A stretch of DNA of 64,000 bases from Fibrella aestuarina BUZ 2 (GTDB taxonomy: Bacteria; Bacteroidota; Bacteroidia; Cytophagales; Spirosomataceae), in assembly GCF_000331105.1 (NCBI RefSeq), contig NC_020054.1, forward strand, positions 5,893,815-5,957,814, in the 5' to 3' direction. The stretch's first letter is position 1, and each line of letters begins with the position of its first letter. A program made the position numbers and the translations under genes. The notes below the pieces were generated by a model. The model saw only the letters and a list, made by a program, of their open reading frames with translations. It searched no databases and was not told where the DNA came from. Positions 10,009 through 53,819 of the stretch are shown here, piece by piece.

Positions 10009-10087
10009 TCAGCAAGATACACGGCGGTACCTTAAACCCATACGGTTTTTACATCGACGTGTAACCCCATCAGAAGGATGGCCTGAA

Positions 10088-10166
10088 AATGATGAATGAT
10101 GGATTATGAATGCTGAAATCGTTGCCTAGCGGGGCCATCATTTCAACATTCATAATCCATCATTCA
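10088..10166. repeat. Intergenic inverted repeat built from 7-base units
   Basis: Left arm 10088-10119, right arm 10140-10166, about 27 paired bases around a 20-base loop. Each arm is a run of degenerate heptamers (AATGATG, AATGATG, then GATTATG and AATGCTG on the left). It lies upstream of the kinase gene and downstream of the TetR gene. It has no T-run and does not look like a simple terminator. Confidence 0.7.
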
Positions 10167-10175
10167 ACCGCTCGT

Positions 10176-10769
10176 CTAGCGCAGGTTGCGGATGAACCGG
10201 CGGAGGGTTTCGCGGTAAATTTGTTCGGAGGTGTCGATGGGCTGCTGGCCCCGCAACAGGAGGCCCAGCGTAATGAGGCCGTGTGAGGTCGCCCACCATT
10301 CGAAATAGAGTCGGCGGATGCTTTCAGCCGACTTCGGAATGAATGAGAAAATGATCCGACTGACGATCTCGTTGACAGTCTTCATCTCATCCGATTCGTC
10401 GAGCGACACCTGGCAGTTGGCCCCGTTCAGGTTGTACATGACCTGATACAACTCGGGCTGCTGAACGGCAAACTGCCACTGAACCAATGATATTTCGTAG
10501 AGCAATTTCTCGGGGTCGCGGTAGAGTTTCACCAGCCGTTCATATTCCTGACGCAGGTGACGAAACCCTTCGTTGCGAACCTCATCGAGCAGACGGTCCT
10601 TACTATCGAAGTAATCATAAACAACCGGCGCACTATACTCGATGGCATCGGCTATTTTCCGAATCGAGACAGCCTGCCAGCCTTCGCGGCGGGCAATGTC
10701 TTTGGCGGTCTGGAGAATACCCGTCCGCGTCTGTTCGCGGGTGCGCTGCTTGCGCTCGACTACTTCCAT
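10176..10769 (-). CDS. TetR/AcrR family transcriptional regulator
   Basis: 197 residues. The N-terminal helix-turn-helix is clear (GWQAVSIRKIADAIEYSAPV, followed by VYDYFDSKDRLLDEV), with a helical ligand-binding domain of the TetR_C_33 kind after it. It probably represses its own gene: a dyad TTAACGGCGTTAA lies 21 bases before the start codon. It is a clear paralogue of the TetR at 55669 (shared SIRKIADAIEYS-PV-Y), whose promoter carries nearly the same dyad. No efflux genes lie beside it, so its target genes beyond itself are unknown. Confidence 0.88.
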   Translation of the reverse strand: MEVVERKQRTREQTRTGILQTAKDIARREGWQAVSIRKIADAIEYSAPVVYDYFDSKDRLLDEVRNEGFRHLRQEYERLVKLYRDPEKLLYEISLVQWQFAVQQPELYQVMYNLNGANCQVSLDESDEMKTVNEIVSRIIFSFIPKSAESIRRLYFEWWATSHGLITLGLLLRGQQPIDTSEQIYRETLRRFIRNLR

Positions 10770-10789
10770 GTTAAATAAAGCTTGGTAAG

Positions 10790-10802
10790 TTAACGGCGTT
10801 AA
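10790..10802. promoter_or_regulatory. Candidate TetR operator (TAAC-N3-GTTA dyad)
   Basis: TTAACGGCGTTAA is a 13-base dyad with one central base, 21 bases upstream of the TetR start at 10769. Read in the gene direction it is TTAACGCCGTTAA, against TTAACGCTGTTA before the paralogous TetR at 55669. Position and match suggest autoregulation. Confidence 0.55.
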
Positions 10803-10939
10803 TCTGGCTGAAAGTTAGCCCATTATCTTAACAAACTATCAAACGGCATACCGTTTTCAGGAAAAAATCACAATCATTATACAATATGTTAAGCAACAGG
10901 TTTAGTAGAATAATCCACTAGTGCGTAACAGATAAATAG

Positions 10940-36530: not shown

Positions 36531-36568
36531 ATACATTGGTATTTTCCTCATCGTCCTCGTTGTATCGC

Positions 36569-37930
36569 ATGAAATTTCCGCTGCTCATAGTGGGCCTTTT
36601 CTCGGCCATGCTGGGGGTTGCCCAGCCCGCTCCCGTTGCGCAAACTCCGCCGATGGGCTGGTCCAGCTACATGGCCTTGCAGCCTCAGTCGCTGGAAAAT
36701 GAAGTCCGCATCAATGCCGACTACATGGCCCAAACCCTCAGCGCACACGGCTGGCAATTTGTGCTCGTCGACTACAGTTGGGCCTACCCGAATCCACCGG
36801 AAGACAACGGCGGCAATCCCAATCAGTCGCGGCTGGCCAACGGTGATTACGTGCCACTCCTCAACATGGATGCCCACGGTCGGCTCCTGCCCGACCCGCG
36901 TAAGTTCCCCTCGTCGAAAGACGGGCAGGGCCTGCGCCCACTAGCTTCGTACCTGCATGGGCTAGGGCTTAAATTCGGGCTTCACGTGATGCGGGGCATT
37001 CCCCGTCAGGCCGTTCGGGCCAAGACGCCCATTCTGGGCACCGATGGTATCACCGCCGATCAGATTGCCGATACCGTCAATGTGTGTCCCTGGCTCAACC
37101 ACATGTATGGGGTCGACATGCGGAAACCCGGCGCGCAGGAGTACTACAATTCCCTGCTCGAACTGTATGGCCAGTGGAACGTCGATTACATCAAATTTGA
37201 CGACATGGGTCAGCCGGGTAACCCGTCGGTATACCACAAAGAGGAAGTGGAAGCCGTGCGGAAAGCCATCGACGAACTGCGGAGACCCATCATCTTCAGC
37301 GTGGCCTACGCGCAACCGTTCGACAACAGCGACCACCTACGCCAACACGCTAACCTGTTCCGAATCAGCAACGATGCCGTCACCAACTGGGAGCAGCTGA
37401 AAAAACAGTTCGACTACGGCGCGCAGTGGTCCACGGTCGCCAGCGCCGGTCACTGGCCCGACGCCGATCGGCTGCCGCTGGGTTGGCGCCCGAAACGGAA
37501 CGTACCTGGCGAAGCCTTTACCGATGCCGAGCAACGTACCCGGCTGACCCTCTGGTGCATGCTGAAATCGCCCCTGATGCTCGACGGTAACCTGCCCGAC
37601 TGTACGCCCTTTGCGGCCAGCCTGCTCACCAACGACGAAGGCTTGGCCGTGAACCAGGAAGCGACCAACCCTCGGCAACTGAGCCGCACCGACGATCTGG
37701 CAATCTGGGTATCCGATGCCCCCGACGGGCAAACGAAAAACGTAGCCCTGTTCAACCTTTCCAACGAAAGCCGCCCCGTAACCCTCACCCTGAGCGACGT
37801 GGGCATTCCCAAAAAAGCGAACATCCGCGACGTGTGGGGCAAGGCCTACAAAGGCCAGTTCAAGAAAACGTTCACCCATCAGCTCGGCCCCCACGATGCA
37901 GTGCTGCTACGCGTCGCACCGGTTCAGTGA
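36569..37930 (+). CDS. Glycoside hydrolase family 27 (alpha-galactosidase type), exported
   Basis: 453 residues. Retaining alpha-galactosidase or alpha-N-acetylgalactosaminidase family. Signal peptide MKFPLLIVGLFSAMLGVAQ supports the start at 36569 rather than 36536. TPPMGWSSYMAL opens the barrel; VDYIKFDDMG holds the nucleophile Asp (family YxKxD); SAGHWPDADRL is in the place of the family acid/base Asp loop; MLKSPLMLDGNLP follows, then a C-terminal beta domain. The first motif departs slightly from classical N-x-W-N, which is common in Bacteroidota members. No PUL genes adjacent. Confidence 0.85.
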   Translation: MKFPLLIVGLFSAMLGVAQPAPVAQTPPMGWSSYMALQPQSLENEVRINADYMAQTLSAHGWQFVLVDYSWAYPNPPEDNGGNPNQSRLANGDYVPLLNMDAHGRLLPDPRKFPSSKDGQGLRPLASYLHGLGLKFGLHVMRGIPRQAVRAKTPILGTDGITADQIADTVNVCPWLNHMYGVDMRKPGAQEYYNSLLELYGQWNVDYIKFDDMGQPGNPSVYHKEEVEAVRKAIDELRRPIIFSVAYAQPFDNSDHLRQHANLFRISNDAVTNWEQLKKQFDYGAQWSTVASAGHWPDADRLPLGWRPKRNVPGEAFTDAEQRTRLTLWCMLKSPLMLDGNLPDCTPFAASLLTNDEGLAVNQEATNPRQLSRTDDLAIWVSDAPDGQTKNVALFNLSNESRPVTLTLSDVGIPKKANIRDVWGKAYKGQFKKTFTHQLGPHDAVLLRVAPVQ

Positions 37931-38131: not shown

Positions 38132-39697
38132 ATGACACGACGCGATTTTATTCATTCGACTTCGGCGGGATATGCATCGCTGCTCGCCTGGGGTCTGCTG
38201 GCACCGGCGCCCGCTTCCGCCTTCAACCTGCCACCCAACGGGGTTAGCGCCACGGGTAAGGCCCGCCGCGTGGTGATCTTGGGCGCCGGGCTGGCGGGAT
38301 TGGCTTCGGCCTGGGAGCTGGGCAAACTCGGCTACGACTGCACCGTGCTCGAAGCCCGCAGCCGGTCGGGTGGCCGCGTCTGGACGGTGCGGGGCGGCAC
38401 CTCGGAGACCGAACTTGGCGGCACAGCCCAGACCTGCCGCTTCGACGACGGCTATTATTTCAACGGCGGGGCCGCCCGCATCCCGCACCATCACCAGCTC
38501 ACGCTCCAATATTGCCGCGAACTGGGTGTACCGCTCGAAATTTTCAACGGGGGCAACGAAGCCGCCTACCTGTACAACGATCAGGCTGAGGGTACTACGG
38601 GTACAGGTTCGTTTGCCAACCGGCGCATTCGGGTGAAGGAGTACCACAACGATATGCGCGGCTACACGGCCGAGTTGCTCACAAAAGCGCTCGATCAGGG
38701 CGCGCTCGACAAAGAGCTGACCAAGGAAGACATCGAAAAGCTGGTCGATTTCCTGAAAAACGAAGGCGACCTCAACACGGCGCATCTTTACAAAGGCACC
38801 AACCGGCGCGGCTACAAAACCGAACCCGGCGCGGGCGCCACGGCCGGTATCACCACCGACCCCTACGGCCTCACCGACATTCTACGGTCGGGGTTCATGC
38901 AGCCCGTTTTCTACAACGTCGGCGATTACATTTACGAACAGCAAACGACGCTGCTTCAGCCCGTGGGCGGCATGGATGCCATTCCCAAAGCCTTTGAAAA
39001 ACGGCTGGCGGGCAAAATCCTGTTCAACGCCCCCGTGACCGAACTCCGCAAAACCGAAAATGGCGTGCGGGTCGTGCACCAGAAAGGCGGCAAACCCACC
39101 GAACTGCTGGCCGATTTCTGCGTCTGCACGTTGCCCCTACCCGTACTCAAAAACCTTGAATCGGATTTGTCGGGCTCGGTCAAACGCGCCGCCGACTTTG
39201 TGCCGTACATCAAAACGGGTAAAATCGGGTTGCAATTCAAACGCCGGTTCTGGGAGGAAGACGATGGGATTTACGGCGGCATTTCGCGCACCAACATGGA
39301 CATCAACCAGATCTGGTATCCGTCGTTTGGCTTCCAGAAACCCAAGGGCGTGCTCATCGGCTATTACAATTTCTACAGCCGGGCCGAAGCCGTAGGCGCT
39401 CTGCCCGTTGCCGAACGCCAGAAACTAGCGCTGGCACAGGGGCAAAAGATTCACCCCCAATACGCCACCGAGTTCGACAACGCCTTTTCGCTGGCCTGGC
39501 ACCGCATTCCTTATTCGGAGGGCGGCTGGGCGTTGTACGACGACACCGTCCGGCGCAAACAATACCCCGCCTTGCTCGAGCCCGACGGCGCTATTTACTT
39601 TGCCGGCGAACATACCACGTACCTGACAGCCTGGATGGCCGGCGCCCTTACCTCGGCCCGCCGCGCCGTCGAAGCCATTCACGCCCGGGTGGGATAG
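38132..39697 (+). CDS. Tat-exported flavin amine oxidase-like oxidoreductase
   Basis: 521 residues. Begins with a twin-arginine signal (MTRRDFIHS...LAPAPASA), so it is exported folded with FAD. FAD-binding Rossmann motif VVILGAGLAGLASAWELG, then EARSRSGGRVWTV typical of flavin monoamine oxidases; the C-terminal FAD loop is YFAGEHTTYLTAWMAGAL. Substrate could be an amine, amino acid or polyisoprenoid; it cannot be told. Next gene downstream is the Hint-domain protein, separated by an inverted repeat. Confidence 0.85.
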   Translation: MTRRDFIHSTSAGYASLLAWGLLAPAPASAFNLPPNGVSATGKARRVVILGAGLAGLASAWELGKLGYDCTVLEARSRSGGRVWTVRGGTSETELGGTAQTCRFDDGYYFNGGAARIPHHHQLTLQYCRELGVPLEIFNGGNEAAYLYNDQAEGTTGTGSFANRRIRVKEYHNDMRGYTAELLTKALDQGALDKELTKEDIEKLVDFLKNEGDLNTAHLYKGTNRRGYKTEPGAGATAGITTDPYGLTDILRSGFMQPVFYNVGDYIYEQQTTLLQPVGGMDAIPKAFEKRLAGKILFNAPVTELRKTENGVRVVHQKGGKPTELLADFCVCTLPLPVLKNLESDLSGSVKRAADFVPYIKTGKIGLQFKRRFWEEDDGIYGGISRTNMDINQIWYPSFGFQKPKGVLIGYYNFYSRAEAVGALPVAERQKLALAQGQKIHPQYATEFDNAFSLAWHRIPYSEGGWALYDDTVRRKQYPALLEPDGAIYFAGEHTTYLTAWMAGALTSARRAVEAIHARVG

Positions 39698-39803: not shown

Positions 39804-40799
39804 ATGAAGCGTACCCTGATTACCTCCCTCTTCACGCTGCTGACGGCGCTGATCACCAACTTTTTCGCCCAGCGGGTGATGGCTCAGTCGTCGCCGGGCG
39901 TGCTGACCGCCGACCAGGCGACGGCTGTAAAAGCCATTCGCATCGCTAACCTCGACAAAGACACCTACTTCAAGTCGGGTGGGTTTATTCTGGAACGCTA
40001 CGAAGACCGCCCCGCCTACGTGTTTACCTACAGCGACGGCATCACGCGGAAAGTGTATCTGTATAAAGTCTACAGCGCCGCCGACACCAAAGAGCTTGGG
40101 TTGCTGGCGCTGTATCAGAACGGCAAAACCAACGAGGTGAAGTCGTTTGTGATTCCCGGTTCGGGAGCCGACCGCAAAGCCTGGGACGCCTATATCGACG
40201 ACCTGAAATATGTAGGCGAAAAAGAACCGGGCCTCATGTCGACGCTGACGTTTGTGCTAAGCCGCGAACTAAGTGGCCTGATGGGCGGTAACGGATCGGC
40301 CAAGGCCGACGATGGCGTCAAGAAGAAAGAAGAATACAACTTCTGCTTCGGCCCCACGGCCCGCGTGACGCTGCCTAACGGCGACACGAAAGCGATCAGC
40401 CAGGTACGGACCGGCGACGAAGTATTAGGCTACGACGCCGCATCGAACACGCTGGTTTCTAGCCGCGTAACGGCCGTCGATACGCATGCAGGTACGTTCC
40501 GGCTGGTGGGGGTCTGGCTGGTGCCGACGCAGGAACTGACCGCCAGCCGCGCTACGTACCCAGCCCAGCCGGTGCTGCTCGAAGCCACCGCGACCCACCC
40601 CGTGCTGACCGCCACCGGCCGCAAATCGCTGGGCGACGTAACAACGGGCGACACGCTGTATCGCTACGAAAACAACCGACTCGTGCCGTATCAGGTGGTT
40701 CGGGTGGGCACGACGGGGCAAGCCGTTGAGCGCCTTTATAACCTACGTACCCAGCCGGGCGGCTATGTGGTAGATGGCACGGTTGTGCTGGACAAATAA
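39804..40799 (+). CDS. Secreted protein with C-terminal Hint (Hedgehog/intein) domain
   Basis: 331 residues. Signal peptide ends near VMAQ (residue 27); residues about 30-175 form an unrecognised domain; a Hint domain runs from Cys181 to the end. It opens CFGPTARVTLPNGDTKAISQ, with the Cys-Phe start seen in Hedgehog Hint modules, then VRTGDEVLGYD. Block B has the T-x-x-H pair (Thr262, His265 in ATATHPVL). The end, ERLYNLRTQPGGYVVDGTVV, lacks the His-Asn of splicing inteins, as Hedgehog does. Self-cleavage at Cys181 through a thioester is plausible but unproven. The start is ATG 39804, before the signal peptide. An RND transporter gene follows after 33 bases. Confidence 0.8.
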   Translation: MKRTLITSLFTLLTALITNFFAQRVMAQSSPGVLTADQATAVKAIRIANLDKDTYFKSGGFILERYEDRPAYVFTYSDGITRKVYLYKVYSAADTKELGLLALYQNGKTNEVKSFVIPGSGADRKAWDAYIDDLKYVGEKEPGLMSTLTFVLSRELSGLMGGNGSAKADDGVKKKEEYNFCFGPTARVTLPNGDTKAISQVRTGDEVLGYDAASNTLVSSRVTAVDTHAGTFRLVGVWLVPTQELTASRATYPAQPVLLEATATHPVLTATGRKSLGDVTTGDTLYRYENNRLVPYQVVRVGTTGQAVERLYNLRTQPGGYVVDGTVVLDK

Positions 40800-40832
40800 A
40801 GGCGGGCCGACCACTTTTGGCTAACTTGCCGC

Positions 40833-43202
40833 ATGATTTGGTCCCGAATAGCCGCCTTTATCTTATCGAATCGGCTGGTGTTACTCATCCTGGTGGCAGT
40901 AGGCACCGTGTTCATGGGTTACCATGCCGCTCAGGTGAAACTGTCTTACGAATTTGCCAAAATCCTGCCGGTTACCGACCCCGATTACAAGCAGTATCAG
41001 GCGTTTAAAGAGCGGTTTGGCGAAGACGGCAACATCATGGTGGTGGGGGTCGAAACCGATTCGATGTACCAGTTGCCCTTCCTGCGTGACTGGCAGCAGC
41101 TTAATCGGCAGATCAAACAGATCGACGGCATCCGCGACGTGGTGTCGAACACGGGGCTGTATACGATTCGGCTCAACGACAGCACCGACCGATTTCAGTT
41201 GCAGCCCGTTGCCAAAGAGCTTCCCACTACGCAGGCCGAAGCCGATAGCCTGCGGGCCACGCTCGGTCGCCTGCCCTTTTATCAGGGGCTGGTTACCGAT
41301 TCATCGGGCCGGGCGCACTTGATGGCCGTTTCGTTCGACCAGAAAAAGCTAAATACGAAAGGGCGCATTGCCACGGTCCGGCAGGTCGAGCAACTGGTCG
41401 ATGCCTTCGGCGAACGCCACCACACGACCGTGCACCTGTCGGGATTGCCCTACATCCGCACGGAATTCACGGCCAAAGTAAGTCGGGAGCTGGGGCTGTT
41501 TATGGGCCTTGCCTTTCTGGTTACGGCTTCCATCCTGTTCATTTTTTTCCGGTCGGCGTCGGTGGTCGGCATCAGCATGGCCGTGGTGGCGGTAGGCGTG
41601 GTATGGGCGCTGGGCTACCTGGTCTTGCTGGGCTACAGCATCACCATCCTGTCGGGCCTGATTCCGCCCATCCTGATCGTCATTGGGGTACCCAACGCCA
41701 TTTTCCTGCTCAACCGCTATCATGACGAGCTCAACAAAGGCCTGCCGCAACGCGAGGCCCTGAGCGTAGCGATTGCCAAAGTAGGCGAAACCACTTTCTT
41801 CGCCAACGTCACCACGTCGATCGGCTTCTTCGTCTTCTACTTCACGGCCAGCCCGTTCCTGCTCGAATTTGGCCTGATTGCCGCCCTCGGCATCATGACC
41901 ACCTTCGCGACGTCGCTGATCCTGATTCCGGTGGTCTTCAGCTACCTGAACGTACCCAGCGAAAAACACCGCAGTCACCTCGACAGCCCGCTGGTCACCC
42001 GGTTTCTGGTTTGGGTCGATGGGCTCGTGCATCGGCGGCGGGCGGCGGTTTATCTGTTTGTCGGTGTGTGCGTCGTGGCGGGTCTGGTCGGAATGAGCCT
42101 GATTCGGGCAACGGGCTATATGGTCGACGATCTGCCCAAAAACGACCCCATCTACACCGATCTGAAGTATTTCGAGAAGACCTATAAAGGTGTACTGCCC
42201 TTCGAGGTCAGCATCGACGCCGGGCGGCCGGGGCGCGTGCTGACGCCTCCTACCCTCAACAAGATCAGGCAGTTGCAGCGTGAATTCGGGCAGCACCCTG
42301 AACTGGCCCGGCCGCTGTCGGTGGTTGAGGCGGTGAAGTTTTTCTACCAGGCTTACCGGGGTGGCGATCCGCGCTATTACCTGCTACCTCCGGCGCTAGA
42401 AATGGCCAAACTGCAACGCTACACCAGTCAGTTGAGCACCGGCACCAAGCGCACCGGCTCGGTGAGTCTGGCGTCGTATGTCGATACCAGCCGCCGATAT
42501 ACCCGGGTGAGTTTTCAGGTGGCCGATATCGGCTCGACCCGGCTGCGCGCGCTGATCGACCAACTCCAGCCCCGCGCCGACTCCATCTTTAATTTCGACC
42601 GCGAAACAGGCCGATGGGTTGACTCGGCTGATCGCTACGCCGTGAACATCACCGGCAACAGCGTCACGTTTACACGGGGCAACGAATACCTGCTCCGCAA
42701 CCTCGCCGAAAGCACGCTGCTGGCCATCGGGCTGGTATCGGTGATCCTCATCATTCTGCTGCGCGACGTGCGGCTGAGTCTTACGGCCATTGTGCCGAGT
42801 ATCGTGCCGCTGATCGTGACGGCGGGGTTGATGGGCTATTTTCACATCAACCTCAAGCCTTCGACCATCCTGATTTTTAGTATTGCGTTCGGTCTTTCGT
42901 CCGACGGCACCATTTATTTCATCACCAAATACCGCGATGAACTGCGCGATAAGAGCGTCGACGTGGCCGAGGCGATATCGCGGACCATCCGGCAAACGGG
43001 CGTCAGCATGGTTTACACGGCATTTATTCTGTTTGCGGGCTTCGCCATTTTCACCGCCTCCACCTTTCAGGGAACCGTGTCGCTGGGCATTCTGGTGTCG
43101 ATTACGCTGCTGATGGGCATGACCTCGAACCTGATCCTGCTGCCAGCTTTCTTGATGACGGTTTACAACCGGCGGCAACGAAAAAAGGTAACGGTTTCGT
43201 AA
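40833..43202 (+). CDS. RND superfamily transporter, MMPL / Patched / HpnN type
   Basis: 789 residues, internally duplicated. Each half has one membrane helix (ILSNRLVLLILVAVGTVFMG; AAVYLFVGVCVVAGLVGMSL), a large periplasmic porter loop of about 180 residues, and a cluster of about five helices. The second half keeps an acidic residue in the fourth helix (FGLSSDGTIYFITKYRDE); the first half reads IGVPNAIFLLNRYHDE, so only one half has the Asp. The group covers lipid and hopanoid exporters (HpnN, MmpL) and eukaryotic Patched/NPC1. Probable lipid or hydrophobic-molecule transport. It lies 33 bases after the Hint gene; TTTTGG-CTAACTTG in the gap might be its own weak promoter. Confidence 0.88.
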   Translation: MIWSRIAAFILSNRLVLLILVAVGTVFMGYHAAQVKLSYEFAKILPVTDPDYKQYQAFKERFGEDGNIMVVGVETDSMYQLPFLRDWQQLNRQIKQIDGIRDVVSNTGLYTIRLNDSTDRFQLQPVAKELPTTQAEADSLRATLGRLPFYQGLVTDSSGRAHLMAVSFDQKKLNTKGRIATVRQVEQLVDAFGERHHTTVHLSGLPYIRTEFTAKVSRELGLFMGLAFLVTASILFIFFRSASVVGISMAVVAVGVVWALGYLVLLGYSITILSGLIPPILIVIGVPNAIFLLNRYHDELNKGLPQREALSVAIAKVGETTFFANVTTSIGFFVFYFTASPFLLEFGLIAALGIMTTFATSLILIPVVFSYLNVPSEKHRSHLDSPLVTRFLVWVDGLVHRRRAAVYLFVGVCVVAGLVGMSLIRATGYMVDDLPKNDPIYTDLKYFEKTYKGVLPFEVSIDAGRPGRVLTPPTLNKIRQLQREFGQHPELARPLSVVEAVKFFYQAYRGGDPRYYLLPPALEMAKLQRYTSQLSTGTKRTGSVSLASYVDTSRRYTRVSFQVADIGSTRLRALIDQLQPRADSIFNFDRETGRWVDSADRYAVNITGNSVTFTRGNEYLLRNLAESTLLAIGLVSVILIILLRDVRLSLTAIVPSIVPLIVTAGLMGYFHINLKPSTILIFSIAFGLSSDGTIYFITKYRDELRDKSVDVAEAISRTIRQTGVSMVYTAFILFAGFAIFTASTFQGTVSLGILVSITLLMGMTSNLILLPAFLMTVYNRRQRKKVTVS

Positions 43203-43309: not shown

Positions 43310-44467
43310 ATGAAACGATTTTACAGTTTCCTGCTTTTCCTGGCCTGGTCAATCAGCCTCTGCGCACAGCCACTCAAAGCGCCAAAAGGCACGCCCACCG
43401 TTCATTTCACGCTAACGGATAGCACCGTCGTTTCGGGCAAAATTATCCGGCAGGACAGCGCCACCATAGCCGTGCAGCGGCCGGGCAAGTACGTAACGTA
43501 CCTGCAACCCAACCAGATCGTCCGCATCACCACGACCCGCCCCGCCAGACAAGCCAACCCGACAAAAATCACGTCGTTCAGCCTGCGCGACGGCGCGACG
43601 GTCAGTGGTCAGGTTGTTCGCCAGACACCCGTAGCGGTGGTCGTCCGGCAAGCCAACGGCACCCAAAGCTACATCGACCCGGCCGACATCCTCAGCACAT
43701 CGACCATGGCAACGGAAGCGGCGAGCAGTGGCCCCAAAGCCATTGCCTCCGATGCCATCGGGGCCCCGTATCTGCTCAGTGGCCGCACGGCCTACACGCC
43801 CAGCGCTGGGACGGTCTATTACCGCAACACGTACCTGATCCGCAACGAGGCCGAAGTGGGCATTACCAACGGCTGGAGCGCCGGGGTGATTACCAACCCA
43901 TCCTGGAATTTCGTGTATGAGACGTCGTCCTATCTCAGTGAAGCGATTTATACCAGCACCGATTTTGGTACACAGGTATACACGCGGGTTGGCGTTCCTA
44001 TTGGCAAAAGCATCCGGTTGGGTGCGGTGCTTACCACTCACTTGCAACGCCAGTATACCTTGAACTCATTTGATATCAGGAGCTACATCAGGAGCAGTCT
44101 ATTGGGGCAAGTACTAGCTTCATTTGGCAAACCACAAAACAACATCACGTTAGGGTATACGTTCCGAATCGATGACAACCTGATGTTCCTACAGGATTTC
44201 GGCATGCTGACGATCGGTACAATTCAATACCTCAGTCCGTCACTTTCGGTCGTCAGTGATAATCGCATTCGGATACACGGCAATTCATATGGCCCTGCGA
44301 CCCGCCTCTCGGCGGCTCTACGCATCCGCAAGAGAAGCCACGCATTCGATATCGGCATTTTTTCGTATACACAGCAGTCATTCTCCAACATCAATTATAC
44401 GAGTAGAACGAAGCTCTATGCCTACCCCTACCTAAGCTACGCCGTACAACTCGGCGGCAGGCGTTAG
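43310..44467 (+). CDS. Exported protein with tandem SH3-like modules and barrel-like C terminus
   Basis: 385 residues. Signal peptide (ends SLCAQ, about residue 22). Two related beta modules follow: TDSTVVSGKIIRQDSATIAV...NQIVRI (about 35-80) and RDGATVSGQVVRQTPVAVVV...ADILST (about 90-130), resembling small SH3-like barrels. The C-terminal 200 residues alternate polar and hydrophobic in a way that fits an outer-membrane barrel. No named family recognised. Its stop overlaps the stop of the convergent esterase gene by two bases. Confidence 0.65.
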   Translation: MKRFYSFLLFLAWSISLCAQPLKAPKGTPTVHFTLTDSTVVSGKIIRQDSATIAVQRPGKYVTYLQPNQIVRITTTRPARQANPTKITSFSLRDGATVSGQVVRQTPVAVVVRQANGTQSYIDPADILSTSTMATEAASSGPKAIASDAIGAPYLLSGRTAYTPSAGTVYYRNTYLIRNEAEVGITNGWSAGVITNPSWNFVYETSSYLSEAIYTSTDFGTQVYTRVGVPIGKSIRLGAVLTTHLQRQYTLNSFDIRSYIRSSLLGQVLASFGKPQNNITLGYTFRIDDNLMFLQDFGMLTIGTIQYLSPSLSVVSDNRIRIHGNSYGPATRLSAALRIRKRSHAFDIGIFSYTQQSFSNINYTSRTKLYAYPYLSYAVQLGGRR

Positions 44468-48368: not shown

Positions 48369-51300
48369 CTACGGCCGTATGACTGCCTGTAAGCCAGCAC
48401 CGCTGCCAATCCGCAATTGTCCAGTAGCCTCATACTGCACCTGTTTTGCCACCCCGCTGCTATTCGCTGGCAGTGTGACGACATGACGGAGTAAAACCGC
48501 ATCGGTAACGCCGGGCACACAGTTGCAGGACCAGGTTGTCGGGTCGCTCCAGGTTCCGTTTTTCACCGTATATAAGCCCAATAGAGCCGGGCGTTTCAGT
48601 CTGATCAGGGTCGTCTGGGAATAGGGTAAGTCAGTGCATTGGCTACGTATCTGCCACTCATAACTACCGCCGGTTGCCAATCCGGTCAATGTGTAACTTG
48701 TCCCCATGACCCCTGCGACAGTATTCCAAGCGTTGGTTCCTGCCAAGCGCCATTGTAGTTCGTAGGGGCCATTTCCGAAATTGTCCTGCCAACGTAACCG
48801 CACCGATGTTGGGCTTACTACTTCCGTCTGTGGCCGGGTGGGAAAGCTGCAAAAGAGCTGAAATATATAGGCATCTGTCTGATAATACTGCCCACAGGTC
48901 GCTCCAACCTGCCACTCGTATGTCCGATTTGTGGCCAGTCCGGTCAATGAATAAGGGCTACTAATTCCGGTGATACTCTGCCAAATGGATGTTCCTTTTT
49001 CTCGCCAGCGAAGCCCATACAGGTTAAGTTGTTGATACAGATCGATCGGACTAGCCTGCCAGCGCAGTAAAACGGTGGTAGGGTCCGTAGGTGTGGCCGT
49101 TTGATTGTATACTGAAGGGGAAGTACAGGTCAATACAAAATCAGATCCGCTTTTGTACGAAGCCTCTACGTCGGGCGCGCAGCTACTGCGTACTTGCCAT
49201 TGATAGGTAATGCCAGCCGTTAGGTTCTGAATAAGCGCAGATTGGCCTTCTACCAACGTACTGGTCCAGACGGTTGTGTTAATCGGCCGCCAACGAACCA
49301 CGCTCACAACGCTCCCTCCAGTCCAGCTAAGCTGAGCTCTGTTAGGATTGAGCATCCCCATAGACCACAGGTTGGTTGCAGCAGCACATTGGGTGGTGAA
49401 GCGGACTGCAGGCGTGAAGCTGGGCAATCCATTGTTGAGGCAATCGGCAGCTACTGCGGCCTCATAAGTGGTGGCGGCTGTCAGGTCAGTCAGGGTGTAG
49501 ACAGACGTGCCCGTTATGCGCCGTTCAATCCATGGCTGCGTACCAACGACCCGGTAACGAAGTATGTATTGGGATGACTCCGTTTGCCAGGTCCATTTTA
49601 GTAGGGCTGCTGTGGGTGACGTTCGTTCGGCATTCACCTGGTAAACAACCGGGCAGATTGTTATAAAGGTGACGATGCTGGAGTACCGTTGAGGAACACC
49701 ATCGAACATCGGAGCGACCCGCCATTCGTACGGGGTACCCGCCTGCAAACCCGTTAGTGAATTGACCGCGCCGGTCTGCACAAGAGCCGTGTTCCAGCCA
49801 ACATTACCCGCCATGCGCCATTGCAGCATGACATCGGCGCTAGACGATACCCAATTCAATTGGGCAGAAGTAGGTTTGACGTTGTAAGCATACAGATCCG
49901 TCACGGTTGGTACCAGGGTCGTGAAGGTGGTTGTCGCACTGTACGTTAACGCACCGTCGCCGTTCACCAGCACCAATCGGGCAACGTACTCCGTACCGGG
50001 TGTCAGGTTCTGAAGCAGCAGCGATTGGGTTGTCAGCAGTCCCGTATTGCTCCACTCAGCGGCTCCTGCTTCCCGCCATTGAACTCGGTAGGCCGACGAC
50101 CCGCCGTAGATGATGGCTAAGCGCGCCTCGGTCGGGGTTATGCCACCAATTACATAGATGTAGCCCTGATCGACACCAGTCTGAAATGTATTGATTGACG
50201 AAAATACCGAACGAACGTTCCCGTCGCAGGTAACCTGTGTACGGTACTCATACGTCGCCCCAGAAGTTAATCCGGTCAGCGTAACCGGGCTGCTCGAAGC
50301 AGCCACGGCAGACCAAGTCGTCGACCCACTGAGTCGCCACTGGACAACTGCCACTTCGCCCGACTCCCAGCGGATTGATGCAGTCCGGTAGTTGGCACTA
50401 GCATATACATTAGTAAGTGGTCGACAGATCGTCCGAAATGTAGCCGCTGTACTGACCTGCCAAGCACCATCGGTTTCGCAGTAGGTACGGATGCGCACTT
50501 CGTACGTGGTGTTAGGCGCCAATCCGGTCAGAAACGCCGTGGAGTTACGTTGCGCAGGCCAGTCAGACCAGTTAACCATGTTTTGTACCCTGTACTGAAC
50601 GATGGCGGATCCCGAGAAAGGGGTGCTTTCGCTGAAACCCCAAAATATAGTTGCCGAAGTAGAACCGGGTGCGGTTGTTATGTAGGCCGGTTTCATCAGC
50701 GTACAGCCATTGGCGGGAAGATCCGTTCGAAACGAAGATCCAGTCACAAAATCACTGTTCGTATTTCCCCAGCATACCGACGCGATTCGCCACTCATACG
50801 CTTGGTTAGGTACAAGGCCAGCCAGCGTGTATTTGTTATAACCCGGCGACTGAGAACCCGTCGAGGCGGTAATCGACATCCACGTTGTCGTCGTTGCGAT
50901 GCGCCATTGCACAATGGCCTGCGCGCCGCCATACCAGCCTATCTGCACGCTCGTTCCATCGAGTACTGTCCGTTCCAGACTGTAAGGGGATTGGCACGAG
51001 AGGGTCGCGTAAGTCGAATAGCTATAGCTTGAACGCATCCCATCCCGTTCGGCACGTACCTGAAACTCATAATTTTTACTATACTGTAACCCACCAACTG
51101 ACCACTTCAATTGCGGCCACTCAATCATCGCCTGACCTGCGGGTACACTTACTGTACTCCAGCTGCCGCCGTCTGTCAGCCTGTATTGGATCGTAAAAGC
51201 GGTTGATCGAGTTTCTTCAATGGTCGCCTTGGGATGTTGCCACAGCACATCGACGGACGAAGCCGACGTAACTTGCGGATACCCGATTTCGGGCGATCCG

Positions 51301-53819
51301 AAGGTTAGCTGAAACGGATAGCTTGACGAAAACGCGCTGTTGACAGTCGTTGAGCAAACGCTCTGAAGTTGGTATTCATACGTAGTACCGGGCTTTAGGT
51401 CAGGAATCGAATAATTAGGTTGGCCCGTCACATCCGAAAGCCAGTCAGTACTGCCAACAGCTCGCCAACGCAACCGGTAGCTATCCGTGCTTGTACGGCT
51501 ATACCATGACACCTGAAACCGCGAGTTATCTATTTGAGAGCCATTGTAGACAGTTGGCGCTAAACAGCTAATGACAAACGCCGGGCCGTCTACCCAAAGC
51601 CCGACAGATTCGTTCCCGCAAACTCCCCGTATCCGCCATTCATACGTTGTATCAGTGAGCAGCCCATACAAGGTGAACGTTTTGTTGCCAGGCGGAGCAG
51701 GCGAGGCGGGCTCGGCTTCGTCAGCGGGTACCGTTTTGCTAATCCAATTGCCGTTACCAGCGGGGCGATATTGAATTTCGTATTGACCGCTGTTGCTTTG
51801 GCCGTACCAGCTCAGTGCAACGCCACCCCCAGGCTTATAAAACGTGACCTGTAGGTTATTAAGCGCGCCATTACACTGTGTTACAAATGTCTGCGCGGTA
51901 CCAAATGGAGCCGAGTCGTTTGCCTTGCAGGTGGACCGAACCTTCCATTCATAAATCTGACCGGCAGTCAGCCCACTCAGCGAATAGGTTGTGGTGGTAA
52001 TGCCAGTGATGGTTGTCCAAGTGGCAGGCCCCGACAACGTCCGGTATTGAATCTCATAGCCTAGGCGCAGTTCAGTTGCTCCGCCGTTCCACGACAGCGT
52101 AGCCGAGTTATTGGTAACCTCTTGCGTCTGATACTGGTACGGTTGAAAACAGTTGAGCGAAAAATAGCTTTGGCTGCTGAAGTCACTGCGTACACCAGCC
52201 TCGCAGACCCGGCGCAACTGCCAGTAGTAACTTTGACCCGGCGTAAGGCCCGTCAGGGTATACGGTGAAGACGTTATACCCGAAACCGTCGTCCAGGAAT
52301 ACGCATCAGACGTGCGCCATTGCAGTTCTGCCGTAGTAGTCGGTACTTTGTTTTGCCACGTCAGCCGGACCGACGAACCGCTGAGGGCTTCGGTATTAAA
52401 TTGCGTGAACGGAGCATAGCAGGGTACCGAATATGTCTGTATTGGTGAAAACTCCGAGATTTCCGATGGCGAGCAGACGTGTCTTACCCGCCATTCGTAG
52501 ATGACACTAGCGAGTGGACTGCTTATTACGTAATTCGCCTGCGTTAGTCCAGTGGCTACTGACCAGCCCGACGTACCACTCACCCGCCATTGCACCTCAT
52601 ACCTCCAGTCCTCAAGCCCTACCCAGCTTAACCGCAGATCGTTTTCGTTGGTAAGCTGGGCCGAAAGGCTGGTGGTAACAGGAGCACAGCTGGTCGTAAA
52701 TACACGCACGGTCGAATAATCAGATGGAACACCACCTGCACAGGCCCCATTAACGCGCCATTCGTAGGTGGTATTATTAGCTAGGCCCGTCAGTTCATAG
52801 CCGGCGGCGGACACGTCGCGGATAACCGTCCAGGTAGACGTACCCGCTACTCGATAGCTCACATCTACCGCGGTGGAGGCTAACCAGCTTACTGCGGCAG
52901 CATTATGCGTTATCGCTAATGTGGTTAGCTGAGTCGGTACGGCACATTGCGTTTGAAACAGCGATGAAGCCGAATAGGCCGATTTTTCGGTTGCTGAACA
53001 GGCTGAACGTACCTGCCATTCGTAGTACATATTCGGGCTGATTGGCTGTAGTCCGTAATCAGCACTGGCCAGATTAGCTATCTCTGTCCAAGTACTGGCC
53101 CCGACTGGCCGCCAGCGTAGATCGACAGCGTAGACATTCGGCGCATTACTCCAGCGCAGTTCTACAGCGTTTGTGTTTGCCGCCAGCACACTCAAATTCT
53201 GCGGGGCCGCACATTCGGTGCGAAAGATCACCGAACTCGTAAAGTCTGACCACACATTTTCGGCGCAACGGGTACGTACCCGCCATTCAAACGTCGTGTT
53301 GTTAGGCAGGTTTTGCAGAGTGGTCGCGTTACCAGAAAGGTCCCCAGCCACTGTCCAGGAGCTGCTTCCTACGGGACGCCACTGCACCTCATGCGCTGCA
53401 TTGACGACGCCAGACTGCCACTGTAGCCTAGCCGATTGATGAGTGACGTCGCTGGTTGATGGGCTGCTCGGGCTGGCGCAGATGGTCTGAAACGTTCGGG
53501 TCTCCGACACCTGTGACGTATCTCCAACCGAACAGATGGCACGTACCCGCCACTGGTAGACGGTGTTATTCGTTAGGCCGGTCAGTGATAGTGTCGACGA
53601 ACTTTGCGGCGGCAGGGACGTCCAGTTCGTTTGCGACGTTGCTTTATACTGGACCTGCCCGGTGACGTTGCCACAGCACTGGTACCAACTCAGTTGAGCC
53701 GACTGGTAGGTAACGGCACTTACGTAAAGATTATACGGAGGCGTCGCACAGTTGGTCTGCGCGATTGTCAGGTGGGCAATAGAGCAAAAAATAACAAAGA
53801 GCAGGTAGCGTATTTGCAT
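48369..53819 (-). CDS. Giant exported fibronectin type III repeat protein
   Basis: 1816 residues. Signal peptide MQIRYLLFVIFCSIAHLTIA, then about 19 tandem FN3-like domains of 85-95 residues. Each has W-x-x-V/I in the middle, LTGL-x-x-x-T-x-YEWRVR near the end, and in most a Cys just after WRVR and another at the next domain boundary (for example WRVRAIC...FQTICASP), which suggests one disulfide per domain. The last 75 residues (NGTWSDPTTWSCNCVPGVTD onward) form a different beta module common at the C terminus of Spirosoma-type surface proteins. Likely adhesin or surface stalk. Unlike the Ig-like giant at 27336, its repeats are well diverged at DNA level. It appears less GC-rich than its neighbours. 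Confidence 0.85.
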   Translation of the reverse strand: MQIRYLLFVIFCSIAHLTIAQTNCATPPYNLYVSAVTYQSAQLSWYQCCGNVTGQVQYKATSQTNWTSLPPQSSSTLSLTGLTNNTVYQWRVRAICSVGDTSQVSETRTFQTICASPSSPSTSDVTHQSARLQWQSGVVNAAHEVQWRPVGSSSWTVAGDLSGNATTLQNLPNNTTFEWRVRTRCAENVWSDFTSSVIFRTECAAPQNLSVLAANTNAVELRWSNAPNVYAVDLRWRPVGASTWTEIANLASADYGLQPISPNMYYEWQVRSACSATEKSAYSASSLFQTQCAVPTQLTTLAITHNAAAVSWLASTAVDVSYRVAGTSTWTVIRDVSAAGYELTGLANNTTYEWRVNGACAGGVPSDYSTVRVFTTSCAPVTTSLSAQLTNENDLRLSWVGLEDWRYEVQWRVSGTSGWSVATGLTQANYVISSPLASVIYEWRVRHVCSPSEISEFSPIQTYSVPCYAPFTQFNTEALSGSSVRLTWQNKVPTTTAELQWRTSDAYSWTTVSGITSSPYTLTGLTPGQSYYWQLRRVCEAGVRSDFSSQSYFSLNCFQPYQYQTQEVTNNSATLSWNGGATELRLGYEIQYRTLSGPATWTTITGITTTTYSLSGLTAGQIYEWKVRSTCKANDSAPFGTAQTFVTQCNGALNNLQVTFYKPGGGVALSWYGQSNSGQYEIQYRPAGNGNWISKTVPADEAEPASPAPPGNKTFTLYGLLTDTTYEWRIRGVCGNESVGLWVDGPAFVISCLAPTVYNGSQIDNSRFQVSWYSRTSTDSYRLRWRAVGSTDWLSDVTGQPNYSIPDLKPGTTYEYQLQSVCSTTVNSAFSSSYPFQLTFGSPEIGYPQVTSASSVDVLWQHPKATIEETRSTAFTIQYRLTDGGSWSTVSVPAGQAMIEWPQLKWSVGGLQYSKNYEFQVRAERDGMRSSYSYSTYATLSCQSPYSLERTVLDGTSVQIGWYGGAQAIVQWRIATTTTWMSITASTGSQSPGYNKYTLAGLVPNQAYEWRIASVCWGNTNSDFVTGSSFRTDLPANGCTLMKPAYITTAPGSTSATIFWGFSESTPFSGSAIVQYRVQNMVNWSDWPAQRNSTAFLTGLAPNTTYEVRIRTYCETDGAWQVSTAATFRTICRPLTNVYASANYRTASIRWESGEVAVVQWRLSGSTTWSAVAASSSPVTLTGLTSGATYEYRTQVTCDGNVRSVFSSINTFQTGVDQGYIYVIGGITPTEARLAIIYGGSSAYRVQWREAGAAEWSNTGLLTTQSLLLQNLTPGTEYVARLVLVNGDGALTYSATTTFTTLVPTVTDLYAYNVKPTSAQLNWVSSSADVMLQWRMAGNVGWNTALVQTGAVNSLTGLQAGTPYEWRVAPMFDGVPQRYSSIVTFITICPVVYQVNAERTSPTAALLKWTWQTESSQYILRYRVVGTQPWIERRITGTSVYTLTDLTAATTYEAAVAADCLNNGLPSFTPAVRFTTQCAAATNLWSMGMLNPNRAQLSWTGGSVVSVVRWRPINTTVWTSTLVEGQSALIQNLTAGITYQWQVRSSCAPDVEASYKSGSDFVLTCTSPSVYNQTATPTDPTTVLLRWQASPIDLYQQLNLYGLRWREKGTSIWQSITGISSPYSLTGLATNRTYEWQVGATCGQYYQTDAYIFQLFCSFPTRPQTEVVSPTSVRLRWQDNFGNGPYELQWRLAGTNAWNTVAGVMGTSYTLTGLATGGSYEWQIRSQCTDLPYSQTTLIRLKRPALLGLYTVKNGTWSDPTTWSCNCVPGVTDAVLLRHVVTLPANSSGVAKQVQYEATGQLRIGSGAGLQAVIRP

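Follow-up and report, generated by a model that had tools for sequence, protein, structure and literature searches.

A bacterial Hint-domain precursor that co-occurs with a twin-arginine-type L-amino acid oxidase homologue in Bacteroidota

The 64,000-nucleotide stretch of Fibrella aestuarina BUZ 2 DNA analysed here (the window; contig NC_020054.1, positions 5,893,815 to 5,957,814) encodes a 331-residue protein, here called HINT, which consists of an N-terminal domain and a C-terminal Hint domain with invariant catalytic residues. Its co-occurrence with a homologue of L-amino acid oxidases (AO) is near-perfect, and the two genes are frequently clustered. With a probability of roughly 0.55, we propose that HINT is an exported precursor that cleaves itself, and that its freed N-terminal domain serves the exported oxidase together with an aminotransferase (AT). 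To our knowledge, inteins and polymorphic toxins aside, a cellular function is known for few Hint domains of bacteria, and one Hint architecture tied to a single discrete type of exported enzyme offers a handle on the purpose of a bacterial Hedgehog-like autoprocessing protein. The same reading would also define a periplasmic module for amino-acid oxidation and a family of N-terminal domains that has no recognised fold.

The HINT gene (39804..40799, + strand, stop codon included) encodes an exported-looking precursor. Judged by eye, a signal peptide covers approximately residues 1–28 (39804..39887, +; its border is approximate), and Gln28 never varies in a 19-row alignment. The N-terminal domain (residues 29–164; 39888..40295, +) is predicted by AlphaFold2 with a predicted local distance difference test score (pLDDT) of 93.8 and a predicted template-modelling score of 0.87. 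The window member of this domain has no Pfam match, and a fold comparison with the PDB gave no convincing match. The linker (residues 165–180; 40296..40343, +) is mostly of low confidence, with pLDDT values below 50 across residues 161–178, and its last two residues are Asn-Phe, followed by Cys. The Hint domain (residues 181–331; 40344..40796, +) has the fold, the Cys1 and the TxxH motif by which the Hint superfamily is recognised, and its alignment with the Hedgehog structure (PDB 1at0) begins with HINT residue 181 on 1at0 residue 258. The initial annotation, which had described a signal peptide, an unidentified N-terminal domain and a Hint domain with Cys181, Thr262 and His265 and without a terminal His-Asn, is thus borne out in silico, and the comparison with the Hedgehog C-terminal domain that it proposed did return the Hint fold.

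The HINT alignment comprises 213 rows (183 distinct sequences): the window, 92 from fetched loci and 120 proteins listed of 271 found. One row (L118) stops at a contig end ahead of the Hint domain, so that counts for Hint residues refer to the remaining 212 rows. Cys181 (40344..40346, +), which is the predicted nucleophile of an N–S acyl shift, Phe182, His228 (40485..40487, +), Thr262 and His265 of the Thr262-x-x-His265 motif (40587..40598, +) and Pro266 are constant in all 212, and the catalytic residues are kept even at ~25–32% identity to the window protein. Residue 180 is Phe in 177 rows, Tyr in 19, Val in 12 and Ile in 4. Lys331, for which we know of no catalytic role, is found in all 209 rows that extend that far; it is the last residue in 195 and is followed by a single residue in 14. 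The rows that fall short of it are L115, L118 and L151, which reach contig ends, and L116, the HINT of Siphonobacter sp. SORGH_AS_0500 (near 10016-10843, +), whose last stretch is aberrant and which is the sole case among the 213 without a contig end as the cause.

No HINT row carries a C-terminal His-Asn and a +1 nucleophile; the proteins end in VVLDK or close variants. With invariant Cys and TxxH residues and no His-Asn end, HINT appears to be equipped for the first step of Hint chemistry and not for splicing. Since the Hint domain is the end of the protein (0–1 further residues), HINT has no counterpart of the sterol-recognition region of Hedgehog and is therefore not a Hedgehog. In Hedgehog, T326A and H329A lower activity and D303 is the general base, according to the part of PMC9163320 that we draw on. 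Column 226 of the HINT alignment is Asp in 107 of 212 rows, and the invariant His228 nearby is a candidate for the role of D303. A release module of the polymorphic-toxin type (PT-HINT, PF07591) would be another way to account for a Hint domain in an exported-looking protein. HINT gives a weak score to this family (12.7 bits), and some frames in the order, the longest with 2864 aa, contain partial Hint-type matches; however, the score is far below the gathering cut-off of 27.7 bits, and a C-terminal Hint domain leaves nothing behind it to release, so that this explanation is highly improbable.

In the self-cleavage reading, HINT, a family-specific domain of ~135 residues joined to a C-terminal Hint module, would first be exported by the Sec pathway. 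Cys181, aided by Thr262 and His265, would then probably attack the 180/181 peptide bond in an N–S acyl shift, and as a Hint superfamily member HINT should perform this first step like Hedgehog or a type B bacterial intein-like (BIL) domain. In the absence of His-Asn it should not splice. Resolution of the thioester by water or a small nucleophile would free the N-terminal domain, which could act on the L-amino acid oxidase and the twin-arginine aminotransferase as a regulator, maturation factor or subunit. Alternatively, an amine might resolve the thioester, whether an amino acid, amine or ammonia that comes from the oxidase/aminotransferase module or an amine of a protein or the wall. The N-terminal domain would then be covalently attached, as in Hedgehog ligation but with the amine in place of cholesterol. 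The partners of HINT resemble amino-acid enzymes, the missing sterol-recognition tail fits an acceptor of this kind, and the Hedgehog thioester, which also belongs to a non-splicing Hint domain, is handed to an external nucleophile (PMC9163320, in the same part), but no amine acceptor was seen and hydrolysis is the simpler fate. We consider this outcome unlikely. Its more specific form, a Hedgehog-like bacterial ligation in which the amine is supplied by or belongs to the periplasmic amino-acid-oxidation module, with the oxidase as the constant partner, seems less likely still.

AO is encoded upstream of HINT in the window (38132..39697, +) and matches PF01593 with 192.5 bits. Its match to PDB 2jae, an L-amino acid oxidase that is presumably from Rhodococcus opacus, has 386 bits over 44–520 (43% identity, 466 aligned positions). 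Positions R83, Q227, Y370, W425 and W466 of the 2jae chain, which we take to line the active site, are identical in AO. Full-length similarity and these residues make AO a predicted 2jae-type L-amino acid oxidase. In 35 chosen genomes the AO group is discrete, as its members score at least 607 bits and the next best match 53 bits. A motif count among frames of at least 350 aa found the twin-arginine motif in 62 of 65 AO and 65 of 68 AT frames, and of the six misses, five have Arg-Lys instead and one is a truncated frame. Two clusters have a disrupted AO next to an intact HINT: in Spirosoma telluris (L064:8340-9894, +) the AO matches lie in three pieces (a broken gene or a sequence error), and in G180 (L198:6399-9217, -) AO and AT are each split into two frames (pseudogenes or a sequence error).

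Co-occurrence was counted in 242 genomes of the window's order with a completeness of at least 90%, with HINT defined as a full-length Hint match of at least 250 bits and AO as a match at E 1e-80 or better. Both are encoded in 33 genomes, HINT alone in 3, AO alone in none and neither in 206. By genus (103 in the order), the corresponding numbers are 14, 1, 0 and 88, and a Fisher test gives 2e-16, a value that overstates the link because genera are not independent. A phylum-wide set of 296 genomes (full-length Hint of at least 223 bits) contains six genomes with both, two of them outside the window's class, one with HINT only, none with AO only and 289 with neither. HINT is thus found in all 37 AO-bearing Bacteroidota sampled (33 in the order set and four more in the phylum set). 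A search with the N-terminal domain alone returned 36 matches, a single one in each of the 36 HINT-bearing genomes among the 242; all lie in frames of 325–419 aa, which leave room for a Hint domain, and the N-terminal domain is thus found only joined to Hint. The starts of AO and HINT are at most 5 kb apart in 28 of the 33 genomes. In the other five they are unlinked, on different contigs in G052, G099 and G110 (contig breaks may be the cause of separation in some of these) and ~200 kb or more apart in G059 and G073. The AO–HINT link therefore outlives adjacency and is not mere operon hitch-hiking.

Gene neighbourhoods were examined in two sets, which probably overlap (for example, in G001 and Fibrivirga algicola). 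The first comprises 59 genomes including the window's own, 27 of them with a match, and wide stretches were taken around 18 full-length relatives; the second comprises 61 named loci from a pattern scan, with at most 10 kb on each side. AO lies near HINT in 16 of the 18 relatives and in 54 of the 61 loci, in 48 of which it immediately precedes HINT on the same strand. AT, a class I/II aminotransferase whose closest PDB entries are putative histidinol-phosphate and phenylalanine aminotransferases, is found in 53 of the 61. The window's family, along with some other lineages, has the order AT-AO-HINT. The order is AO-AT-HINT in L193-L197, L203 and L204, where longest-frame calls give short gaps or overlaps; in four Pontibacter loci HINT is convergent with AT and AO. 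In the window genome, an alpha-galactosidase-like gene (36536-37930) stands upstream of AO in place of AT. The AT orthologue (L183:8176-9378, +; 81% to that of G002) lies away from AO, just beyond the window end, ~28.6 kb downstream of HINT and past an M28-peptidase-like gene, and its displacement suggests that the trio was split by a local rearrangement.

Further neighbours in 77 stretches, some of them overlapping, are M28 family peptidases (16), class V aminotransferases with a twin-arginine motif (10), SusC-like (18, by eye) and SusD-like (11) proteins, all with signal-like N-termini. Two RidA-family (PF01042) genes whose products also have signal-like N-termini are located 3 bases past HINT (L200:3947-4459, -) and near AO (L198:9512-9976, +). 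Rid proteins deaminate imines produced by L-amino acid oxidase in vitro, and PvdN and PtaA are pyridoxal phosphate (PLP) enzymes that are exported by the twin-arginine route and act in the periplasm (PMC5619798 and PMC6206403, each in the portion consulted). The neighbours listed here are compatible with a chemistry of amino acids or imines, and some of the shared gene context is plain within-genus synteny. Cytophagales-like clusters are also present in records of Flavobacterium sp. SUN052 (L077) and Cellulophaga sp. BC115SP (L111), which are possibly misnamed.

Several observations weigh against the self-cleavage reading. Common descent or joint transfer inflates the AO/HINT genome counts. 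HINT occurs without AO in G034, G173 and G179, which belong to one genus (g31) and in which AT adjoins HINT. Neither AO nor AT is found in 6 of the 61 loci (L099, L100, L105, L114, L115 and L118), and four of these (L099, L100, L115 and L118) lie at the end of a contig or close to it. AT is anything but specific, as 88 of the 242 genomes have a match at E 1e-50 or better, and one full-length HINT (L116) has the aberrant last stretch described above. The last point comes from eight loci (L047-L054) with Hint-only relatives, which are secreted-looking proteins of ~160-200 residues encoded near 8 kb in the locus (near 4 kb in L049). By eye, the Cys is gone in seven of the eight and TxxH in five, yet seven of the eight genes adjoin an aminotransferase-like gene.

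The setting of these short genes in all loci except L050, again by eye, consists of SusD, a lipoprotein, an aminotransferase and a permease; SusD is unseen in the printed part of L048 and L049, and the permease of L053 gives 21.0 bits to Mem_trans, short of the cut-off of 25.7. L050 belongs to G040, a genome that also has full-length HINT and AO. No AO was found at E 1e-10 in the eight short-Hint genomes G007, G014, G018, G020, G027, G035, G144 and G166. Degenerate relatives beside aminotransferase-like genes imply that the Hint domain can persist here without catalysis; they suggest that catalysis was lost where AO is absent and, equally, that the fold may have a non-cleaving role. The full-length Hint domain might likewise not cleave in vivo and act as a binding or structural domain that tethers the N-terminal domain to the oxidase or the envelope, and the invariant Lys331 at the extreme end would suit such a role. 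Against it, Cys181, His228, Thr262 and His265 are constant across all full-length rows down to the lowest identities. We regard a non-cleaving HINT as doubtful, if the least doubtful of the alternatives.

Downstream of HINT the window encodes an MMPL/HAE3-like RND transporter (40833..43202, +) with MMPL and sterol-sensing matches. The initial annotation had noted this adjacency correctly and read it as a possible functional pair, in which a Patched-like transporter would handle the lipid of a lipid-tagged secreted protein; it counted loss of the neighbourhood in relatives as refuting, and by that standard the pairing fails. MMPL is near HINT, apart from the window, in 2 of the 18 first-set relatives (G001 and G003) and in 2 of the 61 loci (Fibrivirga algicola and Fibrella forsythiae), where the distance is ~0.66 kb with an opposite-strand frame of 145-151 aa in between. 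It is missing nearby in the other 59, and in two genomes of the same genus (G002 and G004) the MMPL orthologue and HINT are on separate contigs. An MMPL homologue (E 1e-20 or better) is present in 17 of 18 Hint genomes searched, yet G001 and G003 are the only ones in which it lies close to HINT. The scarcity of MMPL near HINT and the missing sterol-recognition tail make the lipid pairing very improbable, and MMPL is not a conserved partner. The transporter scores 155.7 bits to the hopanoid transporter HpnN (NCBIfam TIGR03480), far below the cut-off of 751.85. The self-cleavage proposed in the initial annotation stands as a prediction.

Among known systems, HINT resembles Hedgehog in having a C-terminal Hint domain without His-Asn behind a secreted N-terminal domain (signal by eye), but its N-terminal domain is without recognisable similarity and it is paired with an oxidase homologue instead of Patched. 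Unlike inteins, it lacks the C-terminal His-Asn and the +1 nucleophile. BIL domains of type A are defined by a C-terminal His-Asn and those of type B by no similarity to intein block G (PMC4031507, in the part consulted). HINT differs from type A and, ending without His-Asn, resembles type B, with cleavage at the Hint border predicted; unlike BIL domains, it has one fixed architecture and one genomic partner. A bacterial subgroup with a C-terminal Hint-like domain, some signal peptides and two conserved upstream cysteines (PMC2362128, in part) is similar to HINT in its Hint position and signal-like N-terminus. Going by that partial description it differs in its cysteines, as the HINT N-terminal domain lacks Cys altogether in the window member and shows none that is conserved. 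What sets AO apart from the 2jae oxidase is its twin-arginine leader and the Hint partner encoded in every sampled Bacteroidota genome that has AO. Pseudomonas PtaA/PvdN are a precedent for twin-arginine export of PLP enzymes; they tailor pyoverdine, and the part of PMC6206403 used here mentions no Hint protein.

Two other genes of the window deserve mention. One (43310-44467, +) encodes a protein of 385 aa that weakly matches Hfq_1 near its N-terminus (15.3 bits, below the cut-off), and the other (48369-53819, -) encodes an 1816 aa protein with many fibronectin-III-like repeats, as judged by eye.
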